Origin: a virus
DNA length: 25,155 bases
IMG/VR virus record: IMGVR_UViG_3300010885_023846
Coordinates: 1 to 25,155 of that record
Direction: 5' to 3' (one strand)
Below are positions 8,007 through 25,155 of this stretch, one piece after another. Every line of letters starts with the position of its first letter. Position 1 is the stretch's first letter. A model generated the notes under the pieces. That model was given only the letters and a program-made list of their open reading frames with translations. It was not told the origin of the DNA and made no database searches. A program made the position numbers and the translations under genes.

Positions 8007-8350
8007 CTAAAAGTGTCTAATTTAGACGCCTCAAAAATACGAATAAATTCCGATTCGCTACGAACTAAAAAATATTCGAGCCCTAAAGCCTCAACTTCAT
8101 TTTGAAACTTTTTTTGCTTATCGCTTTGTATTCCAGTTTCCGTTTTAAACTCAATGAAGATAACCCGATTCGGTAAGATAGCAACAGTATCGCTTACACC
8201 GGACAATACACCGGTATTTGTTTTGTGATAGTTGTTCTCATTTGGGACGCTGAAAATTACACACTTAGGGTTGCATGTAACTCGGCTGTAATTATTCCTA
8301 AACCACATGATACATTTGCTCTGAAGATTAGCCTCTGATTGCATAGTCAT
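8003..8350 (-). CDS. VRR-NUC domain nuclease
   Basis: The 115-residue protein consists of little more than a VRR-NUC (PD-(D/E)XK-like) fold. The active-site elements are GVSDTVAIL with D54, FIEFKTETG with E67 and K69, and the following QSDKQKKFQNEVEALG helix, which is typical of the family. The N-terminal EANLQSKCIMWFR helix also fits. Such stand-alone nucleases act on branched or structured DNA and often sit with phage replication or packaging genes. Here the gene overlaps the helicase upstream by 23 bases and the small terminase candidate downstream by 4 bases, so it could resolve replication intermediates before packaging. Confidence 0.8.
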   Translation of the reverse strand: MTMQSEANLQSKCIMWFRNNYSRVTCNPKCVIFSVPNENNYHKTNTGVLSGVSDTVAILPNRVIFIEFKTETGIQSDKQKKFQNEVEALGLEYFLVRSESEFIRIFEASKLDTFR

Positions 8351-9749
8351 TGAATTTTGAATCTCCTAAAAGTGCCTCCTGTCTATAAATCCACCCGCTT
8401 GAATATGCCATAAGTGAGGCGTATTCTTTTAATGCTTCACGTCCTTTACTTCTAACAACACGCCAAATATACGATGCTTTATACTTCTTTGTCTTTTGGA
8501 GTTCCACAAGTTCCGGCAAAGTGAGCTGAGTAAATTTCTTCCCTATAAATTTTTTTGGCACTACTTCAATCATTACACCTTCAATAACTGGTGCTTCTTT
8601 CTGCTCAAATACAAGTCCACAAAACTTACATACTTTAGCCGTAGCGTATAACATAGCCTCACATGAAGGGCAAGTTTTTACAGGTGCTGCACCTTCTTTT
8701 TTTTTCTTCTTTTCCTTTAGGCTCCATTCACGCGGTTCATTCCACATTCCATGTTGGTCATGGTTCATTCCAAAATCTAAAACGGTGAAGTGTGTTTTTT
8801 GGGCGTAAGGGCGCGAACCCCTCCCCAAACATTGCAGGAATAAAGGTAGTGAAAGTGTTTTCCGATTCATGATTACACATTCGATACTAGGCTCATCATA
8901 TCCGGTAGTAAGTATTCCGCAATTATTTAGGACAGGGAATAAACCTTTTGAGAATGCGGAAAGTATGCGCTCCCGTTCTGCTTTCGGGGTTTTTGATGTA
9001 ATAGATTCGCTAACTATTCCTTGTTCGTTAAACTCCTTCGCCATTGCATCGCTGTGTTCGATGTTCACGTTAAAAACAATAGTCTTTTTATTCGGTGTGC
9101 GCTTCTGCCATTCAGTTACAACTCCGCTGTAAAGTTTCCGCTTATTGAAGTGGTTAAAGAGCGATTCGTCTGTATATTCTTTTCCCTTAATTGTTAGGTC
9201 TGAAAAATCATCTACCATTTGGAATGCTTTACATTCGCACAAATAACCCTGTCCAACCAGTTCAGGTGTGTCTATTGTCTGTATTATTTCGGAGTAGTAT
9301 TTCGGAATGTGCTTTCCTATTGGTGTTGCTGTTGCTCCGATTACTCTCGCGGCCGGGTGTGTGTCGATTAGCTTTGTAAAATTTCCTTTATGTGCTTCGT
9401 CAATGATTATCAAATCAGGATATACATTATAGCCGCGTCTGTGTAGCGTTTCAATCATGGCTACTGTAACTATTGCTCGTTGGTCTATTGAGGCTGTATT
9501 TGCATTTACTATTTGAATCGGGATAGAATGCCGCTGTAATGCTTTGAATGTTTGCTCAAATAGTTCTACCCGGTCGGTCAAAATTAGGGTGCGCGTTCCT
9601 TTGTCGGCTGCCATTCGCACCATTTCAGAAAACACTACTGTTTTCCCGGCTCCTGTTGGTAGTGCTAAAATGATTCTTCGATGTCCGTTCTTAAAAGATT
9701 CGCGCAAATCGGAAATCGCTTCTTGTTGGTATGGTCTTAAATGTAGCAT
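8328..9749 (-). CDS. DEAH-box SF2 DNA helicase with C-terminal zinc motif
   Basis: The 473-residue protein begins LRPYQQEAISDLRES, the Q-motif-like start of ResIII/DEAD helicases. Walker A PTGAGKT is at 31-37, IIIDEAH at 114-120, GATATP at 138-143, and the motif VI arginines are in QCLGRGSRP at 306-314. A zinc knuckle follows a Lys-rich linker, with C360, C363, C374 and C377. An ATP-dependent duplex unwinding or remodelling role in phage replication is likely. It is the first gene after the repeat-rich spacer and is transcribed away from it. The C-terminal 90 residues after the zinc motif are not recognised. Confidence 0.88.
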   Translation of the reverse strand: MLHLRPYQQEAISDLRESFKNGHRRIILALPTGAGKTVVFSEMVRMAADKGTRTLILTDRVELFEQTFKALQRHSIPIQIVNANTASIDQRAIVTVAMIETLHRRGYNVYPDLIIIDEAHKGNFTKLIDTHPAARVIGATATPIGKHIPKYYSEIIQTIDTPELVGQGYLCECKAFQMVDDFSDLTIKGKEYTDESLFNHFNKRKLYSGVVTEWQKRTPNKKTIVFNVNIEHSDAMAKEFNEQGIVSESITSKTPKAERERILSAFSKGLFPVLNNCGILTTGYDEPSIECVIMNRKTLSLPLFLQCLGRGSRPYAQKTHFTVLDFGMNHDQHGMWNEPREWSLKEKKKKKEGAAPVKTCPSCEAMLYATAKVCKFCGLVFEQKEAPVIEGVMIEVVPKKFIGKKFTQLTLPELVELQKTKKYKASYIWRVVRSKGREALKEYASLMAYSSGWIYRQEALLGDSKFNDYAIRG

Positions 9750-9973
9750 ATTTTGGTTGAGTTTTTTGTAACGGGTGTAACTGGTTGTAACGGGTGTCTA
9801 AAATTCTAGTCGTTACACTATGAAAAACGGGCATTTGTAACGGGTGTAACTAGTTTTCTATTCAAAAGTTTTATATAATACACACACACATCATTATTTA
9901 TTATTGGCACACACATCATTATTTATTTAGTAACTCTAAAAAGTAGCGGTTACACCCGTTACACCCGTTACAC
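9750..9973. repeat. Repeat-rich spacer, candidate replication origin (TGTAACGGG iterons)
   Basis: This 224-bp spacer has no gene. Three plus-oriented copies of TGTAACGGGTGT occur at 9767-9778, 9786-9797 and 9836-9847, two of them extended to TGTAACGGGTGTAAC. A single GTTACAC lies at 9812-9818, and a run of the reverse form, GTTACACCCGTTACACCC plus GTTACAC, fills 9949-9973 just before the end of the primase-helicase gene. A separate 20-bp exact direct repeat, CACACACATCATTATTTATT, occurs at 9883-9902 and 9908-9927 in an AT-rich stretch. Iterons beside an AT-rich segment, between a primase-helicase and a helicase, are what an origin would look like. Transcriptional operators for the helicase are the alternative. 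Confidence 0.6.
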
Positions 9974-12145
9974 TTAAAACGGGTCAGGCTGATTATCAAT
10001 GGTTTGCGCATTTAGTGTATCAATTTTAATACAGGAATAGAATTTTCCAACTACTCCGTTTATGCGCGTCAATTTACATTCACCCAAAATAAATTTCAGT
10101 TCGATGCCAAACCTAGTCATGTTAATTATCTTCTGATGGGTCGAATTTTCGATGTAAGTTTTAATTTGAGTAGCTGTTAAATGTTCAACATATCCTGCTC
10201 CCTGCGATTCTGCTTTAAAGAACTGGGCAATCAACTCGCGTTCAAAAGGCATTTTTTCAAATACCAAGTTAGCGTTTGACAGTTCGGCAAGTTCCGATTT
10301 CGATAACTGCCATTCTTCGCCCGATTCATACGCTCTGACAATTTCCATAAACAATTCATCCTTATCAATAGCGTTATATCTATCGTGGTGAATATGTAGG
10401 ACGTTGACTGGTAAAATACGGGTGTTTCCAGTCGGGTCGTTTATAATATCAACTTCGTTCGATGTTCCGCAAAGCACTGCCAGGCGCTTAAAGTCCTCAT
10501 TATATTTACCGTAAGGAGCGCGAAGTGAGAAGGTATGTTTCGATGTGAGGTCTTTAAATCGCTTTTCATCATTACGGGTCTTTCCTCCCATTTCATCATC
10601 CATAAGTATCAACTTTTGACACATGAGAATTTCATCGTCCTTTTCGCGGTCAAGTTTACTTTCGGCATAATATCTTTTAAGTGCTGAAGGTAGCAACCTC
10701 CGAAACCATTCTGTTTTGCCTGTGTTTTGCCCACCTACCAAAGAAAGGACCGAGCGCACCGGGATGCCGTCATAAGCAGCGATTAAACCAATTAGCCATT
10801 TACGGATATAAATATTGGCGCATGGTGTATCTGTTTCAATCGTATCAATTAGCGCGTCTATCTGCCCGCTATTCGTTCGGTGGCGGTTACGTTCGATGTA
10901 TTCCGTTATTGGATTAAATATTTGAATGTGGTCTGAAAAGATTACTGATTCGATTAAGTCTTTTGTAACGTCCTTTGAATTAAAGAACATACGCCCTCGA
11001 AGATAGATAGTGTTAAGACGTTCTTTTTTCACCTCCGTTCCTGCCTCCTCAATCATCTTAGTTATGCTATTAATACGGATAGGATGGTTTAACATTATCC
11101 AATCTATCAAAGCCGGGATAAGTTCTTCAGGTGTTTTGGCTAACTTATTTACCTCAATATCTTCACGCTTCATTACTTCGGCTGTGATTATTGCGGCATC
11201 GCTTTCGGATATGTTTTCCATTTCTACCAACTGCTTTGCTATACCTTCGCTACTTCGCCCGTTCTTTTTCCCCATTGCCGCAACCTGCACCGCCCGTTTA
11301 TTTTCTTTTGGCAGTTCGATGCCATGCTGTTTAAGTAGGTAGTAAAAGGTTCCAACGGTTATACCTTTGTTTTTTTCACGGGCGCAATAATTAAACTGTG
11401 TATCGCATTGGCTTTCGCTGTATTTATCAGATGTGCTGCATAACGCATGATAATAGGCGCGTCCACCTTCGCCAAAGCCATTAGCCAAAGCAAAGCCTAA
11501 TTTTAAATAACTGTCATAGTCCGGTGCTATGTTTATTCTTCGTTCGGTTACGGTTCTAATCAACTCCTCAACTTTGTTTTGCGGAATAATTAACGGTAGC
11601 GATTTCTGTTTAGTAGGTTTTTCAACGGCGCATTTAGCCTTTAGCGATTTGTCATTAGTGAATATTTCAGGGTCATGCGAAACAAAACGGAGCGATGCCA
11701 CATTCTTAGGCGCAGGGTCGGAAGTAATACCGAATTTTGCATAGTAATAACTTGCCAACCAGTTATAGCTTTCAACGTGTTTATCCGGATTAACCTTTGC
11801 AATTATGGCAAGTCCTTTTCCAGTTACAGAAAGAAACAGCGCGTAGGTGTACGGGTCGGCTGCAAGTTCTGATTTGTCGGTATAGTTATCAATATCAATA
11901 CAGATAAACCCGCTATGCTTTATTAGCTTGTCTTTATCGCGCTCTTTAAATAGCCCTGCAATAGTTACGGATGGAAGTGTGCGCTTTAGTTTATCGCGTG
12001 TAGCTTTGTCCGGTGCATTGCGAATAGGTTCAACCAACTCGCTCCACGTTCCGTATTTAACGGCTGAAATAAATTCGGTTATAGTAGTTGCACCTGTTGA
12101 AAGATGTGGCTTTTCACGAAAGCCTATAAAAGTTGAAATATCCAT
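9974..12145 (-). CDS. VirE/BT4734-type primase-helicase (AEP-like plus D5/SF3-like ATPase)
   Basis: Counting from the preferred start, ATG 12145-12143 (MDISTFIGFREKP), the protein has 723 residues. An upstream ATG at 12211 adds 22 residues that lie over a hairpin, so I prefer the internal start. The N-terminal part has FICIDIDNY (DxD) and LSVTGKGLAI, matching the BT4734-like/AEP-type primase pattern. A PriCT-2-like YDSYLKLGFALANGFGEGGR segment follows. The VirE-type ATPase has Walker A GGQNTGKT at about 471-478 and Walker B LILMDDE at about 512-518. It should synthesise primers and unwind DNA at the fork. The SSB-like gene lies upstream and the repeat spacer begins at its stop codon, consistent with a replication module. 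Confidence 0.85.
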   Translation of the reverse strand: MDISTFIGFREKPHLSTGATTITEFISAVKYGTWSELVEPIRNAPDKATRDKLKRTLPSVTIAGLFKERDKDKLIKHSGFICIDIDNYTDKSELAADPYTYALFLSVTGKGLAIIAKVNPDKHVESYNWLASYYYAKFGITSDPAPKNVASLRFVSHDPEIFTNDKSLKAKCAVEKPTKQKSLPLIIPQNKVEELIRTVTERRINIAPDYDSYLKLGFALANGFGEGGRAYYHALCSTSDKYSESQCDTQFNYCAREKNKGITVGTFYYLLKQHGIELPKENKRAVQVAAMGKKNGRSSEGIAKQLVEMENISESDAAIITAEVMKREDIEVNKLAKTPEELIPALIDWIMLNHPIRINSITKMIEEAGTEVKKERLNTIYLRGRMFFNSKDVTKDLIESVIFSDHIQIFNPITEYIERNRHRTNSGQIDALIDTIETDTPCANIYIRKWLIGLIAAYDGIPVRSVLSLVGGQNTGKTEWFRRLLPSALKRYYAESKLDREKDDEILMCQKLILMDDEMGGKTRNDEKRFKDLTSKHTFSLRAPYGKYNEDFKRLAVLCGTSNEVDIINDPTGNTRILPVNVLHIHHDRYNAIDKDELFMEIVRAYESGEEWQLSKSELAELSNANLVFEKMPFERELIAQFFKAESQGAGYVEHLTATQIKTYIENSTHQKIINMTRFGIELKFILGECKLTRINGVVGKFYSCIKIDTLNAQTIDNQPDPF

Positions 12146-12157
12146 GTAGGGAAAGAA

Positions 12158-12207
12158 GCCCCGAAGCGAAAGCCCACAGGAGTAAGCTATGGTTTCGACA
12201 ACGGGGC
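12158..12207 (-). promoter_or_regulatory. Imperfect stem-loop in the leader of the primase-helicase gene
   Basis: On the minus strand GCCCCGTTGTCGAAACC (12207-12191) faces GGGCTTTCGCTTCGGGGC (12175-12158) across a 15-base loop. The six outer pairs are perfect, there is an internal bulge, and CGAAA/TTTCG pairs inside. The structure ends 12 bases before the preferred ATG. It is followed by no T-run, so a terminator is unlikely; translational control or an attenuator-like role is possible. Confidence 0.4.
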
Positions 12208-12244
12208 ACATAAATTTGTAAAGTCATCTTACTCATGACGTATG

Positions 12245-14068: not shown

Positions 14069-14635
14069 ATGGAAAATTCATCAACACTAACTAAAATTGC
14101 CCCTGCACTGGTAAAGGCCCAATCTGAAATGAGTAATGCGGTGAAGGATAGCAAAAACCCTTTTTTCAAATCTTCCTACGCTGATATTAACAGCGTTAGG
14201 GAGGCTTGCATCCCTTCACTCAATAAGCATGGAATAACAGCTTTGCAGCCTACCGTTTACCGCGATGGCAAATCATTTGTTCAAACATTACTACTTCACG
14301 AATCTGGTGAGTATATTTCTTCGCTTACCGAAATTATTTGCAATAAACAAAATGATGCACAATCTCATGGGTCAGGTGTATCGTATGCGCGGAGATACGG
14401 TTTGCAAAGTATGTGTAATTTGGGCAGTTCAGATGACGATGGAAATGAGGCAAGCGCACCAGCACCGGCTAAACCTTCCACAGATAAGGCATGGCTAAAC
14501 AAAGGAACGGACGAATGGAAGAATGCCGTAAATGCCCTGCTAAAAGGCACACACACAATCGAGGACGTTAAAAAGAAGTATTCTTTATCAAAGCCGAATG
14601 AAACCGAATTATTAACCTTAACAACTAAAAAATAA
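14069..14635 (+). CDS. erf: ERF-family single-strand annealing recombinase
   Basis: The 188-residue protein has the family layout: an N-terminal helix with LVKAQSEMSNAVKDSKNPFF, the YADINSVREACIP helix, and the conserved block GSGVSYARRYGLQSM at residues 101-115 followed by acidic SSDDDGNEA. ERF-type proteins (P22 Erf, Rad52-like superfamily) bind ssDNA and pair complementary strands, which helps circularise or recombine phage genomes. The C-terminal Pro/Ala linker and final short domain may contact partner proteins. Its neighbours in the plus-strand operon are a small protein upstream and the DGQHRL protein downstream, matching a recombination module. Confidence 0.85.
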   Translation: MENSSTLTKIAPALVKAQSEMSNAVKDSKNPFFKSSYADINSVREACIPSLNKHGITALQPTVYRDGKSFVQTLLLHESGEYISSLTEIICNKQNDAQSHGSGVSYARRYGLQSMCNLGSSDDDGNEASAPAPAKPSTDKAWLNKGTDEWKNAVNALLKGTHTIEDVKKKYSLSKPNETELLTLTTKK

Positions 14636-16000: not shown

Positions 16001-16029
16001 TGCGAGCGCGAAATAGTGGAGGGTGACAA

Positions 16030-16054
16030 ACGGGGAGAGACCCGTACATTTTTT
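16030..16054 (+). terminator. Intrinsic terminator-like hairpin with T6 run
   Basis: ACGGG (16030-16034) pairs with CCCGT (16041-16045) across GAGAGA, and a T6 run (16049-16054) follows after ACA. The stem is short, but the T-run makes it a credible rho-independent terminator for the Gp157 operon. It lies inside a possible GTG-started extension of the next gene, which argues against that longer start. Confidence 0.5.
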
Positions 16055-16075
16055 AACGCAGTAATGAATGAGAGA

Positions 16076-16750
16076 ATGAAAGTATTAATAGCATGTGAAG
16101 AAAGTCAAGCGGTTTGTAAAGAGTTTAGGCGATTAGGGCATGAGGCGTATTCTTGCGATATTCAGCCGTGTAGCGGTGGGCATCCTGAATGGCACTATCA
16201 ACAAGATGTTTTTGAAGTAATAGGCATGGGGTGGGATATGATGATAGCTTTTCCGCCTTGCACATTTCTAACCGTTACGGGCGCAAGATGGCTATACAAT
16301 AAAGACAAGACTAGGAATGAAGCAAGGTGGATTGAACAGGATTTAGCAGTTGAGTTTGTGAAAAAACTATACTACTCTAATATCCCAAAAATAGCTATTG
16401 AAAATCCTGTTGGAAAACTAAGTTCTCTTTGGAGAAAGCCGGACCAGATTATACAGCCGTATTATTTTGGTGATGAAGCACAAAAGACAACTTGTTTATG
16501 GTTAAAAAATTTGCCACAACTTCAACATAATGGAACTGCTAATTTATTTGATAGTAATATAACGCATTCGGGAAAGGGTAAAATGGTTACAACAAGCACA
16601 GGCAAAACGTTCAGTAAATGGTATTGGGAAACGAGCAAAGGTAAAGGAAAGGAAAGACAAATTATGAGAAGCAAAACCTTTCCAGGAATAGCGAAACAAA
16701 TGGCTGAACAATGGGGTGGAATACTCCCCCAATCAACAGAAATTAATTAA
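16076..16750 (+). CDS. DNA methyltransferase (PPC/ENP motif, C5-cytosine-like)
   Basis: The preferred start is ATG 16076 (MKVLIACEESQAVCKEFRRL), giving 224 residues; ATG 16064 and GTG 16016 are in frame but the hairpin terminator sits between. MKVLIACEESQ matches a widespread phage methyltransferase family in which an S-adenosyl-methionine fold opens the protein. FPPCTFLTVTGARW at about 59-72 carries the catalytic PPC loop of C5-cytosine enzymes, and IENPVGKLSSLW is the ENP equivalent of motif VI. It most likely methylates phage DNA to block restriction. Many in this family are annotated only as 'DNA methylase', and the target sequence cannot be read from the sequence. Confidence 0.8.
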   Translation: MKVLIACEESQAVCKEFRRLGHEAYSCDIQPCSGGHPEWHYQQDVFEVIGMGWDMMIAFPPCTFLTVTGARWLYNKDKTRNEARWIEQDLAVEFVKKLYYSNIPKIAIENPVGKLSSLWRKPDQIIQPYYFGDEAQKTTCLWLKNLPQLQHNGTANLFDSNITHSGKGKMVTTSTGKTFSKWYWETSKGKGKERQIMRSKTFPGIAKQMAEQWGGILPQSTEIN

Positions 16751-19708: not shown

Positions 19709-20413
19709 ATGATAGAAGCAGTCAGCCCCCATTTTGCAAAACCGATGTTACAGGAAGTACGGGTTTTAAACCTATACGCTTGTCTTGGTGGTAATCGTTA
19801 CAAGTGGGATGAAGTGGCAAATATTGAAGTAACCGCAGTTGAATATGATGCTGAAATTGCAAAAGCATATCAAGAGCGTTTTCCAAATGATAAAGTAATA
19901 GTTGCAGATGCACACCAATATTTACTTGACCATTACAAAGAGTTTGATTTTATATGGAGTTCGCCACCTTGTCCGAGCCATAGCAAAATTAGAATTACTC
20001 AAAAAAGTAGAGAAACATTTACGCCTTTATATCCTGATATGAAATTGTATGAAGAAATCATTTTTTTAGACAATCATTTTGATGGTAAATATTGTGTTGA
20101 AAATGTAACGCCTTATTATGAGCCATTGATACCAGCGAAAAAAATAGGTAGGCATTTATACTGGACAAACTTCAATTTGCCAAACGATTTGAAAGAAAGA
20201 AAATTAGATGGTATTTTATGCACTATGATTGATGAACACAAGAAACTTGAAGTATTCCACGATTTAAAAATTAACGCAAATTTAGGCGGTTATCGTGATG
20301 TTTTAAGAAATCTTGTAGATTATGAGGCAGGAAAGACAATATTTCAAACTGCTTTAGGAATAATAGAAAGGTCAAATATTAAACAAAATTCTCTATTCGG
20401 AGATGGATGGTAG
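19709..20413 (+). CDS. C5-cytosine DNA methyltransferase (cassette gene 1)
   Basis: The 234-residue protein has motif I LNLYACLGGNRYKW at about 20-33 for S-adenosyl-methionine binding, the catalytic IWSSPPCPSHSK with Cys at about 88, and ENV at 131-133 (motif VI, base flipping). The end VLRNLVDYEAGKTIFQTALG resembles the closing motifs IX/X. The target recognition region is short, so the enzyme is compact. It methylates cytosine in DNA, probably the phage's own, to escape host restriction. It is flanked by attC-like elements and has a more AT-rich codon use than the phage core genes, suggesting transfer. The start could also be M13. Confidence 0.8.
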   Translation: MIEAVSPHFAKPMLQEVRVLNLYACLGGNRYKWDEVANIEVTAVEYDAEIAKAYQERFPNDKVIVADAHQYLLDHYKEFDFIWSSPPCPSHSKIRITQKSRETFTPLYPDMKLYEEIIFLDNHFDGKYCVENVTPYYEPLIPAKKIGRHLYWTNFNLPNDLKERKLDGILCTMIDEHKKLEVFHDLKINANLGGYRDVLRNLVDYEAGKTIFQTALGIIERSNIKQNSLFGDGW

Positions 20414-20890: not shown

Positions 20891-21724
20891 ATGGAAACAA
20901 ACTACGGTGGAGGACATTATATATGTGATAAATGCGGTGAAACTGTTTCGGGAAGTGCATTGCATCATTGCCAAATAGAGCACCCGAAAAAGTATAGTGT
21001 AATTTATGCAGACCCAGCATGGAGATTTTCGCAGGGTATAAACAGGCGTTCTGCAATACGCGAAAAGCATGGAACGAATGAAGAACTATCATTGCAATAT
21101 CCAACAATGGCTGATGATGAAATCACAAATTTGAATGTTGGAAGCATTGCTGATGACAACTGTGTTCTATTTTTATGGACTACGGATGCACATTTAGAAG
21201 TTGCTATTAAGGCACTAAATAACTGGGGCTTTAAATATAAAACAGTTGCTTTCACTTGGAATAAGAAGCGGGGATTTATGGGAAAATGGACTGTGAAACA
21301 ATGCGAGATATGCTTGCTTGCAACAAAGGGAACAGCCCACAAACTTTTAAAATCATTCAAAGAGAAATCGTATTTGGAAGAAGAAAAAACTAAGCACAGT
21401 AAGAAGCCAAATGAATTTAGATTGAGAATTGAACGAATGTTTGGTGATGTGCCTAAAGTAGAATTGTTTGCAAGGGAAAAACATAGCGGATGGGATACAT
21501 GGGGCAATGAAGTGAAAAATGATTTTGTATTGGATGTTAAGGGGGCGTTTTTAAATCAAATTTTTGTATTGGACACACCGAATGAAGAAGCGCATACACC
21601 GCATTGCAGCAAGCCCATGTTAGCGGATGAAGTTTACCAACACTCCTTTGAAAAATTGAATGACATTAAGCATAGTGGATATTGTGGAAAGTGTGGAAAG
21701 ATAGAAGCAAACTTTTTCCGCTAA
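20891..21724 (+). CDS. MT-A70 family adenine methyltransferase with terminal Cys pairs (cassette gene 3)
   Basis: The 277-residue protein has DPAWRFSQG at 41-49, the MT-A70 catalytic DPPW motif in a DPAW form, preceded by YSVIYA. NWGFKYKTVAFTWNKKRGF and the ATKGTAHKLL segment follow, as in the family. An N-terminal CDKC at 12-15 with H25, H26 and C27, and a C-terminal CGKC at 265-268, could bind zinc, unlike the shorter MT-A70 at 22143. It should methylate N6 of adenine in DNA. It is bracketed by half site 3 and palindrome 4. Confidence 0.8.
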   Translation: METNYGGGHYICDKCGETVSGSALHHCQIEHPKKYSVIYADPAWRFSQGINRRSAIREKHGTNEELSLQYPTMADDEITNLNVGSIADDNCVLFLWTTDAHLEVAIKALNNWGFKYKTVAFTWNKKRGFMGKWTVKQCEICLLATKGTAHKLLKSFKEKSYLEEEKTKHSKKPNEFRLRIERMFGDVPKVELFAREKHSGWDTWGNEVKNDFVLDVKGAFLNQIFVLDTPNEEAHTPHCSKPMLADEVYQHSFEKLNDIKHSGYCGKCGKIEANFFR

Positions 21725-22142: not shown

Positions 22143-22679
22143 ATGAAGCTATACGATGTGATATATGCTGACCCTGCTTGGAGGTATGACTTTGCCGAAA
22201 CTGATAATAGAAAAATTGAAAATCATTATCCGACAATGAGCATAGAAGAAATTTGTGCGTTGCAAGTGCCTACAAAGCCAAATGCAGTGCTTTATATGTG
22301 GGCTACTGCTCCGAAGCTGAAAGAGGCAATGCAAGTGATAGATGCGTGGGGATTTGAATACAAGACACACGCAATTTGGGATAAGAAACTGATTGGAATG
22401 GGTTACTGGTTTAGAGGGCAACACGAATTGTTAATGGTTGCAACAAAAGGTAAATTTTCGCCTCCAAAACCCGAACAAGTAATTAGTAGTGTGATTGAAG
22501 CAAAGCGGAGCAAACATAGTAGAAAACCCTACGCAGTAAGGACAAAAATTAAGGAGTGGTTTCCTGATGCTGACAGATTGGAAATGTTTGCAAGAAAGCC
22601 AAACGAATTATTTGTAGAAGAAGATTTTGCGGGATGGGATTTATGGGGTAACGAAAGTCAAAACCTTTTAAAAATTTGA
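22143..22679 (+). CDS. MT-A70 family adenine methyltransferase (cassette gene 4b)
   Basis: The 178-residue protein opens MKLYDVIYADPAWRYDFAET with DPAW at 10-13, then ENHYPTMSIEEIC, LYMWATAPKLKEAMQVIDAW and GFEYKTHAIWDK, the standard MT-A70 order. AWRYDFAETD and the late GWDLWGNE are conserved family spots. It lacks the terminal cysteines of its relative at 20891. The enzyme should methylate N6 of adenine in a short DNA sequence. It is the second MT-A70 of the cassette block and is flanked by the inverted repeats at 21845 and 22702. Confidence 0.85.
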   Translation: MKLYDVIYADPAWRYDFAETDNRKIENHYPTMSIEEICALQVPTKPNAVLYMWATAPKLKEAMQVIDAWGFEYKTHAIWDKKLIGMGYWFRGQHELLMVATKGKFSPPKPEQVISSVIEAKRSKHSRKPYAVRTKIKEWFPDADRLEMFARKPNELFVEEDFAGWDLWGNESQNLLKI

Positions 22680-24174: not shown

Positions 24175-25155
24175 TTACTTGGATGGATAAAACATTGGGA
24201 ATTGTACGGATGTTTGAGTAAGCCCGCTATAAGCCTGTGTCGAGCCTAAAATAATATTTGTAACTGATGGCTTTGTAGCGAACATAGTAATACTATTAGC
24301 AAAATCAATCTTGCCAACTGAAAGAGTAGAAGTCGAAACAAGTCCGTAAATTGTGGGTAATGTAACTTGCGCTGAACTATTATAGATAAACCCAACTACA
24401 TAGGTGGTGTTTGCCGCCATTACATAAGGGGTGTAGAATGCTTTGTACTGCCATGTATTATTTGCGCCCTTCCAAATCGCTCCATCATTCGCGGTACTGT
24501 CCACCCATGTAATCGTTCCCGCGCTTAGTGTCCCGAATACGATGCCATTGTAGTTGTCTGCGGTGTAATTCCCCTGTGTACCATGATGCCATTGGATACC
24601 AACTAAAGTATCAGCATTCCCACCAGTATAATATAAGCAATAGCCAACTTGCCCGTCTGCTAATGCCCCTGTTGCTACTGTTCCGCTATTTCTTTCAGGC
24701 GTAGCGTTATAAGTACCGCCTAACATTCTTGAACCTAAATCTCGGTATCTTGCATAAACGTCAACTAATGAACCGCTACCGGTTATTCCTGTTGCGCCCG
24801 TTACCCCGTTCGTTCCAGTAGCCCCCGTTGCGCCATTACTACCATTCGAACCTGTTGCCCCCGTACTTCCGTTAGTGCCATTTGTTCCAGTAGCACCCGT
24901 TACGCCATTTGTTCCGTTGTTTCCTGTTGCGCCTGTTGGACCAGTTACTCCTGTCGCACCTGTTGCGCCCGTCTGCCCCGAACTTGTTATAGATATAAAT
25001 ACCGTTGCACCCGAACCAAAATTAGTTGTGCCTGCACCTCCCGAACTTACTAAAGAAACAGGATATTGCCAATATGAAGTCGATGTACCTGCATTGAAAT
25101 TAGTTGGCGTTCCTGTAACTACCCACGTCTGATAATTACTTGAAACATTTCTATC
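24175..25155 (-). CDS. Collagen-like tail fibre protein (cut by window edge)
   Basis: The open frame runs from the right edge (25155) to TAA at 24177-24175, giving 326 visible residues without any start; an internal ATG at 24726 is not the true start. Residues from 25155 on are beta-rich ([19 protein letters not shown]), then Gly-X-Y repeats such as [38 protein letters not shown] and [13 protein letters not shown], about 60 residues in all. A globular C-terminal domain follows. Short collagen-like stretches act as rigid, flexible-length linkers in phage fibres and are prone to repeat-length change. It is probably a receptor-binding fibre. Confidence 0.75.

Follow-up and report, generated by a model that had tools for sequence, protein, structure and literature searches.

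The intergenic segment at positions 9750-9973 of the analyzed virus record (the window, i.e., the whole stretch of 25,155 nt) is very probably a phage replication origin recognized by the phage's own primase-helicase Rep, with the wing of a predicted winged-helix domain putatively reading the iterons and opposed rings putatively opening the DNA. A repeat layout conserved beside rep, a Rep protein homologous to PriRep1, and covariation of the iterons with the C-terminal wing of Rep are best explained by an origin that the neighboring primase-helicase recognizes; the same three lines support the first-pass annotation, which had proposed a candidate replication origin at this place from the nucleotide sequence. 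The locus is most likely an origin of the PICI/SaPI type, found here in Bacteroidota-associated tailed phages.

The segment coincides precisely with the whole intergenic gap from the start of the DEAH-helicase gene to the stop codon of rep, both genes being on the minus strand. The claimed placement between a primase-helicase and a DEAH-helicase gene agrees with the bounding ORFs (9974-12211 and 8328-9749), and the repeats do abut the primase-helicase stop, iteron F1 beginning 1 base past that codon (Table 1). Opposed iterons around an AT-rich core had also been described. The repeats are there, but their list was incomplete, lacking three copies of TGTAAC, at 9949-9954 (minus strand), 9812-9817 (minus strand, within the plus side), and 9845-9850 (plus strand). 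The gap thus holds nine copies of TGTAAC within 206 bp, arranged from the rep stop as three minus, the core, two plus, one minus, and three plus. Exact copies of TGTAACGGG start at 9767, 9786, and 9836 on the plus strand and at 9955 and 9964 on the minus strand; with at most one mismatch, this word has 14 matches in the full window versus 3.9 expected, and 0 of 100 shuffles reach 14. On the rep strand, numbered from the stop codon, F copies begin at +1, +10, and +19, R copies at +123 and +132, another F at +156, and further R copies at +182, +192, and +201, F and R being the two orientations. These offsets were taken from locus L005, which has an identical module, and the window itself agrees with them.

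Table 1. Coordinates of the putative origin elements and flanking genes in the window.
Feature	Position	Strand	Basis or remark
rep, 745-aa primase-helicase	9974..12211	-	Pfam, structure model, PriRep1 match
Codons of Rep 656-729, predicted winged-helix domain	10025..10246	-	AF2 of domain alone and full model
Codons of Rep 706-725, recognition-helix end and wing (predicted), best iteron covariation	10037..10096	-	Partial Mantel test
Iteron F1 TGTAACGGG	9964..9972	-	1 base past rep stop codon
Iteron F2 TGTAACGGG	9955..9963	-	
Iteron F3 TGTAACCGC, degenerate, missed by the first-pass annotation	9946..9954	-	
AT-rich core, putative unwinding element, contains 20-bp direct repeat	9851..9948	.	24.5% GC
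20-bp direct repeat, copy 2	9908..9927	.	
20-bp direct repeat, copy 1	9883..9902	.	
Iteron R1 TGTAACTAG	9845..9853	+	
Iteron R2 TGTAACGGG	9836..9844	+	
Lone opposed iteron F4 TGTAACGAC, conserved module element	9809..9817	-	
Iteron R3 TGTAACGGG	9786..9794	+	
Iteron R4 TGTAACTGG	9776..9784	+	
Iteron R5 TGTAACGGG	9767..9775	+	17 bp ahead of helicase ATG
DEAD/DEAH (ResIII) helicase gene, after origin	8328..9749	-	Pfam

The core measures 98 bp, and a GC content as low as its 24.5% occurs in just 0.9% of the 98-bp segments of the record. The exact 20-bp direct repeat reported earlier is present, its copies starting at 9883 and 9908. The AT-rich core is kept in relatives; the direct repeat is not kept in the more distant ones and is therefore probably incidental, so that a functional role for it was dropped. 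An Rfam search over the core produced no match above threshold, and those below it, to two microRNA families, were taken as chance; the GC skew along the window has no sharp switch at 9750-9973.

A nucleotide search of the 9750-9973 region against phage records gave no match, and relatives were therefore gathered through Rep; the virus loci comprise the best 80 of 155 stretches encoding a relative. Downstream of rep, the relatives show the same anatomy with differing iterons (TTAATAGG, GGTAAC, GTAGTA, GTTGTA, GTAACAG, GTGGTA/GTGGTAA, and others). A strict exact-word detector of the pattern F{2-4}-core-R{1-3}-F-R{2-4} was applied to 102 sources, i.e., 79 virus loci with a rep stop (from the best 80 of 155), 22 bacterial-genome loci, and the window. 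It returned 49 modules, 48 of them near rep and 45 beginning within 60 bp of the rep stop; other strict modules lie within ~1.2 kb of the rep stop (L052-L054), and one (L074) is unrelated. The same detector found no module in one shuffle of every locus (1.1 Mb). A looser layout was present at the rep stop in 44/78 viral loci (from the best 80 of 155) versus 6/3900 shuffles.

When no place was assumed, the strongest opposed-repeat cluster lay at the rep stop in 54/78 viral loci from the best 80 of 155 (3.5 expected) and in 13/21 bacterial-genome loci (0.8 expected). Many virus loci are near duplicates, and counts per Rep cluster (90% identity) therefore weigh more; by this measure, three-fourths of the clusters (27/36, again from the best 80 of 155) have it at the rep stop, with 1.6 expected. 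All module counts omit L025, which has no rep stop, and the strongest-cluster count also omits L021, whose 3' end is short, and, among the genome loci, L219. Four of the nine exceptional Rep clusters have a strong cluster elsewhere, at +866 in L052, just upstream of rep in L074 and L080, and at +5736 (contig end) in L065, and in the other five (L009, L012, L014, L023, and L057), the repeats at the rep stop are weak or degenerate. L009, L010, L012, and L057 showed no clear module, either at the rep stop or in the remainder of the examined DNA, and the module is degenerate in L014, L023, and L041-L043. Where the next gene directly follows rep, a cluster may be found at another place close to rep (L052-L054, L074-L084). 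At the scale of whole records, the top cluster adjoins the VapE domain in six of seven long phage records, G005 being the exception.

This conservation bears on the idea that the array is a MITE-like or other mobile inverted repeat, with which inverted arms 168 bp apart would agree, or chance low-complexity sequence. Both are extremely unlikely: the layout is conserved and the sequence is not; in 5000 dinucleotide shuffles of the gap, no six-letter word occurring on both strands exceeded 6 copies, and 0/5000 reached nine; the top clusters lie by VapE in the long records; and neither empty sites, which were looked for unsystematically, nor extra copies were seen in the relatives.

The geometry of the module is nearly constant. 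Across 29 loci (one per 85% Rep identity), the median start-to-start distance over the core is 102 bp, with quartiles of 94-104, and in most of the 21 loci where it was measurable, the lone opposed iteron precedes the next R copy by 24-26 bp (range 15-26). In the genome loci L210, L213, L220, and L224, the orientation of the module relative to rep is flipped, and the L052 module is symmetric, running three F, one R, three F, core, three R, one F, and two R. Given these flipped modules, the symmetric L052, and the steady spacing, the module acts as a self-contained unit whose elements keep an order of their own. An alternative reading makes the repeats a set of operators through which Rep or another regulator would govern transcription of the helicase and terminase genes downstream, the origin lying elsewhere. 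We regard this alternative as improbable: although the last iteron set is just ahead of the helicase ATG in the window and ahead of the next gene in many relatives, operators would not need an AT-rich core at a steady spacing, and the cluster is also found upstream of rep (L074-L084) or flipped with much of its geometry kept. Sigma-70 promoter and terminator scans of 9600-10100, whose model does not include Bacteroidota promoters, gave nothing above shuffles. A regulatory role in addition to that of an origin is possible, because the iterons extend to 17 bp before the helicase ATG, and autoregulation by Rep on top of origin function is likewise possible.

By record titles, the bacterial-genome relatives are mostly Bacteroidota (Chitinophaga, Pedobacter, Pontibacter, Spirosoma, and others), with a few from other groups. 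Six named phages have a Rep relative. An opposed cluster is located at the rep 3' end in Flavobacterium phage FPSV-S1 (L283) and Streptococcus phage Javan150, and at +611 in Flavobacterium phage mymlan6-1 (L280); no cluster was found at the rep 3' end in Cellulophaga phi46:1, Nonlabens P12024L, and Xanthomonas FoX5 (together L278, L279, and L281). Since such a cluster is missing from the rep 3' end in several of these six, the organization is not universal in VapE phages. Further Bacteroidota VapE loci, left out of the counts since many are minus-strand and were not re-oriented, include some with strong clusters (e.g., L234, L235, L241) and some with none (e.g., L232, L244, L257).

Rep consists of a BT4734-like N-terminal domain, PriCT-2, and VapE (Pfam; PF05272, E 2.5e-31), followed by a predicted C-terminal winged helix. 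It is homologous to the SaPI PriRep1 helicase. A search of the Rep family profile against PDB sequences (hmmsearch) had as its sole match PriRep1 (7pds; E 6e-12, helicase core), which we take to be an SaPI protein and whose entry is labeled 'Similar to D. nodosus vapE'. PriRep1 was also the top Foldseek match of the full Rep model (E 1.5e-12), and VIA-align superimposed the two over 353 residues (Z 19.8, rmsd 3.6, span 307-729), the runner-up entry having Z 11.0; papillomavirus E1 was among the fold matches as well (Z 9.2). The full model has a mean pLDDT of 80.7 and is low across 540-574. By its PF05272 and PriRep1 matches, Rep belongs to the VapE/D5/DUF927 class of helicases, and it would presumably load itself. 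AlphaFold modeling of the C-terminal 108 residues gave a winged helix with pLDDT block means mostly above 93 across about 657-727; its predicted elements, in full-length numbering, are helices 680-691 and 698-709 and strands 713-717 and 720-729. With this domain alone, Foldseek found nothing under E 0.001, the best matches being RFX (E 0.097) and Rok (E 0.16), and VIA-align reached Z 7.3 at best, which is compatible with a generic winged helix. RFX contacts DNA through its wing.

Iteron identity averages 0.88 within a locus (0.78 in the lowest locus) and 0.57 between loci, even at the best of five offsets. Free variation of the iterons in relatives had been named in the first-pass annotation as an outcome that would refute an origin. 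The iterons do vary widely between loci, but the copies within an origin change together and their spacing is fixed; such concerted change at fixed spacing is what an initiator-specific origin predicts, and the free-variation criterion therefore needs rewording. For instance, L007, whose Rep is 93% identical to that of the window, has TGTAAA in all eight copies, and the 53 differences between the two Reps include C712G, L714M, and T715C. L058, which is likewise similar to the window, retains TGTAAC, and over the 712-715 stretch its DNA, read by eye, encodes the residues of the window. The rep frame of L058 (867-3107) is broken, with 24 internal stops when read straight, and its iteron origin is intact; this reflects either an error in sequencing or decay of the gene with retention of the origin. 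L063 and L067, with more than 90% Rep identity, have GTAACAG and, in most copies, GGAACAG, respectively, and their wings differ at residues aligned to window residues 711 and 719-720, among other differences.

Covariation of iterons with Rep was measured by a partial Mantel scan of 15-residue segments, controlled for identity over Rep 1-640. Thirty-seven of the 45 usable loci were kept after cutting those with fewer than 5 iteron copies or more than 97.5% Rep identity; the Rep alignment excluded nine Reps with internal stops (L015-L017, L024, L027, L029, L056, L058, and L069), the iteron seeds were hand-chosen, and the F orientation was assigned by layout, not by sequence. Rep 711-725 ranked first and 706-720 second (max-statistic p 0.0005 each with 37 sequences, and likewise with 29). 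For a stricter set of 25 canonical loci, only 711-725 (p 0.0035) and 516-530 (p 0.0275) were significant after correction, and 706-720 had p 0.055. In the structure model, the best-covarying stretch is the end of the recognition helix together with the wing of the predicted winged helix. A second covarying stretch, 516-530, belongs to the helicase domain (codons at window positions 10622-10666) and weighs against the proposed reading. Covariation of the iterons with the C-terminal wing of Rep beyond overall relatedness also argues against a packaging (pac/cos) or partition site, with repeats recognized by a ParB-like protein or the small terminase, as does the association of the repeats with rep in most relatives. 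Packaging and partition sites often contain opposed repeats, and the terminase genes are ~2 kb off in the window, yet we consider such a site very unlikely.

The word TGTAAC is not confined to these origins. The 15-mer TGTAACGGGTGTAAC, used as bait for initiator genes, occurs in at least 119 virus loci. Among the matches listed, 43/119 loci have five or more TGTAAC within 260 bp, and only 2 of these 43 have a P0001-like Rep. Twenty neighboring ORFs, picked by size, included VapE/DUF5906 (L144, L148, L168), DUF927 (L142, L200), an AAA/NrS-1-like region (L139), DnaB (L180), and a weak DnaB_C (L203), the other 12 being unrelated or without a family. VapE or DUF927 was found in 10/40 array records versus 2/41 others among the 15-mer matches listed, a difference that is only suggestive; the array set was 41 loci, with 40 records reported, and the control was 41 of the 76 remaining loci. 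Most of the 15-mer arrays are without explanation, and some are located inside ORFs (L111, L199). The TGTAAC core word may be reused by unrelated initiators (L098-L203). Dense TGTAAC arrays were observed in L117 and L166 (12 and 13 copies within 260 bp, respectively), and each of these records has a weak VapE-like match in a 901-aa frame.

For the putative origin, we infer binding by Rep, hexamer loading, melting, and bidirectional replication at 9750-9973. The C-terminal winged helix, chiefly its wing, would read the iterons, and Rep hexamers would assemble on the opposed iteron sets flanking the ~100-bp AT-rich core; the core would then melt, two Rep rings would separate by moving along single strands, and synthesis would be started by the primase fused at the N terminus. 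The lone opposed iteron and the outer set might fix polarity, hold a second complex, or autoregulate the downstream gene. As a tentative and rather doubtful generalization, VapE-type Bacteroidota phage initiators might share a portable asymmetric module in which the geometry is fixed and the iteron 'address' is repeatedly rewritten by a few Rep-wing residues, producing a natural, readable code of mutually incompatible origins; theft of the replicase by satellites or rival phages with matching iterons might be what drives the rewriting. The family supplies many natural origin-initiator pairs in which the iterons differ and the geometry hardly does, so that both the recognition code of a self-loading helicase and two-ring origin opening become directly testable.

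Among the other genes of the window, that at 14069-14635 encodes an Erf-like ssDNA-annealing protein (PHROG 2324, E 3.9e-41), so that recombination-dependent late replication is possible alongside the putative origin. The ORFs 20891-21724 and 22143-22679 contain a YADPAW motif and resemble MT-A70-type adenine methyltransferases; PPC motifs reminiscent of cytosine methyltransferases are present in the ORFs 16016-16750 and 19709-20413. Collagen-like G-x-y repeats occur in the ORF at 24175-25155, perhaps a tail fiber, which runs off the record.

Iterons plus an AT-rich unwinding region characterize iteron plasmid origins and lambda ori, whose initiators load a separate helicase, whereas the initiator here, judging by its domains, would be the helicase itself, together with a primase. 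SV40 T antigen and papillomavirus E1 are self-loading hexameric helicases that act at opposed sites. Their origin-binding domain is N-terminal according to the available part of one paper (PMC7581432), whereas the putative origin-binding domain of Rep is apparently C-terminal. The same part of that paper describes, for SCCmec Cch2, three iterons just downstream of the self-loading helicase gene, bound by the C-terminal domain of the helicase; only these three iterons are reported there for Cch2, in contrast to the opposed sets around an AT-rich core found here (PMC7581432).

The closest counterpart is the rep-ori of PICI/SaPI elements. In SaPIbov1, SaPI1, SaPI5, and EcCICFT073, two iteron sets flank an AT-rich region, an organization that the 2018 PICI paper, in its available part, attributes to "no other known bacterial replicon", and the rep-ori segment of EcCICFT073 was shown there to drive autonomous plasmid replication (PMC6092414). 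The PICI Rep is described, in the available part of a second paper, as a self-loading helicase whose C-terminal domain recognizes the origin (PMC7581432). The window shares with these elements a putative origin directly 3' of rep, two iteron sets around an AT-rich region, and a PriRep1-homologous Rep. It differs from them in the Bacteroidota association, in the fusion of a BT4734-like/PriCT-2-type primase to the helicase, and in the asymmetric 3-core-2-1-3 module with its lone opposed iteron and hypervariable iterons. A search of openly licensed papers found no description of this asymmetric module and no paper on such origins in VapE phages, and a precedent in the primary SaPI-origin or PriRep1 papers is possible. 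Satellites are helper-dependent and without full virion genes, whereas the virus record, itself a fragment, carries large terminase and endolysin genes; we accordingly class the replicon as PICI-type and the element itself as a phage rather than a PICI. That phages and prophage-like loci of Bacteroidota combine a PICI-like origin organization with a homologue of PriRep1 points to a wider replicase family, and this organization may have been shared between phages and satellites.
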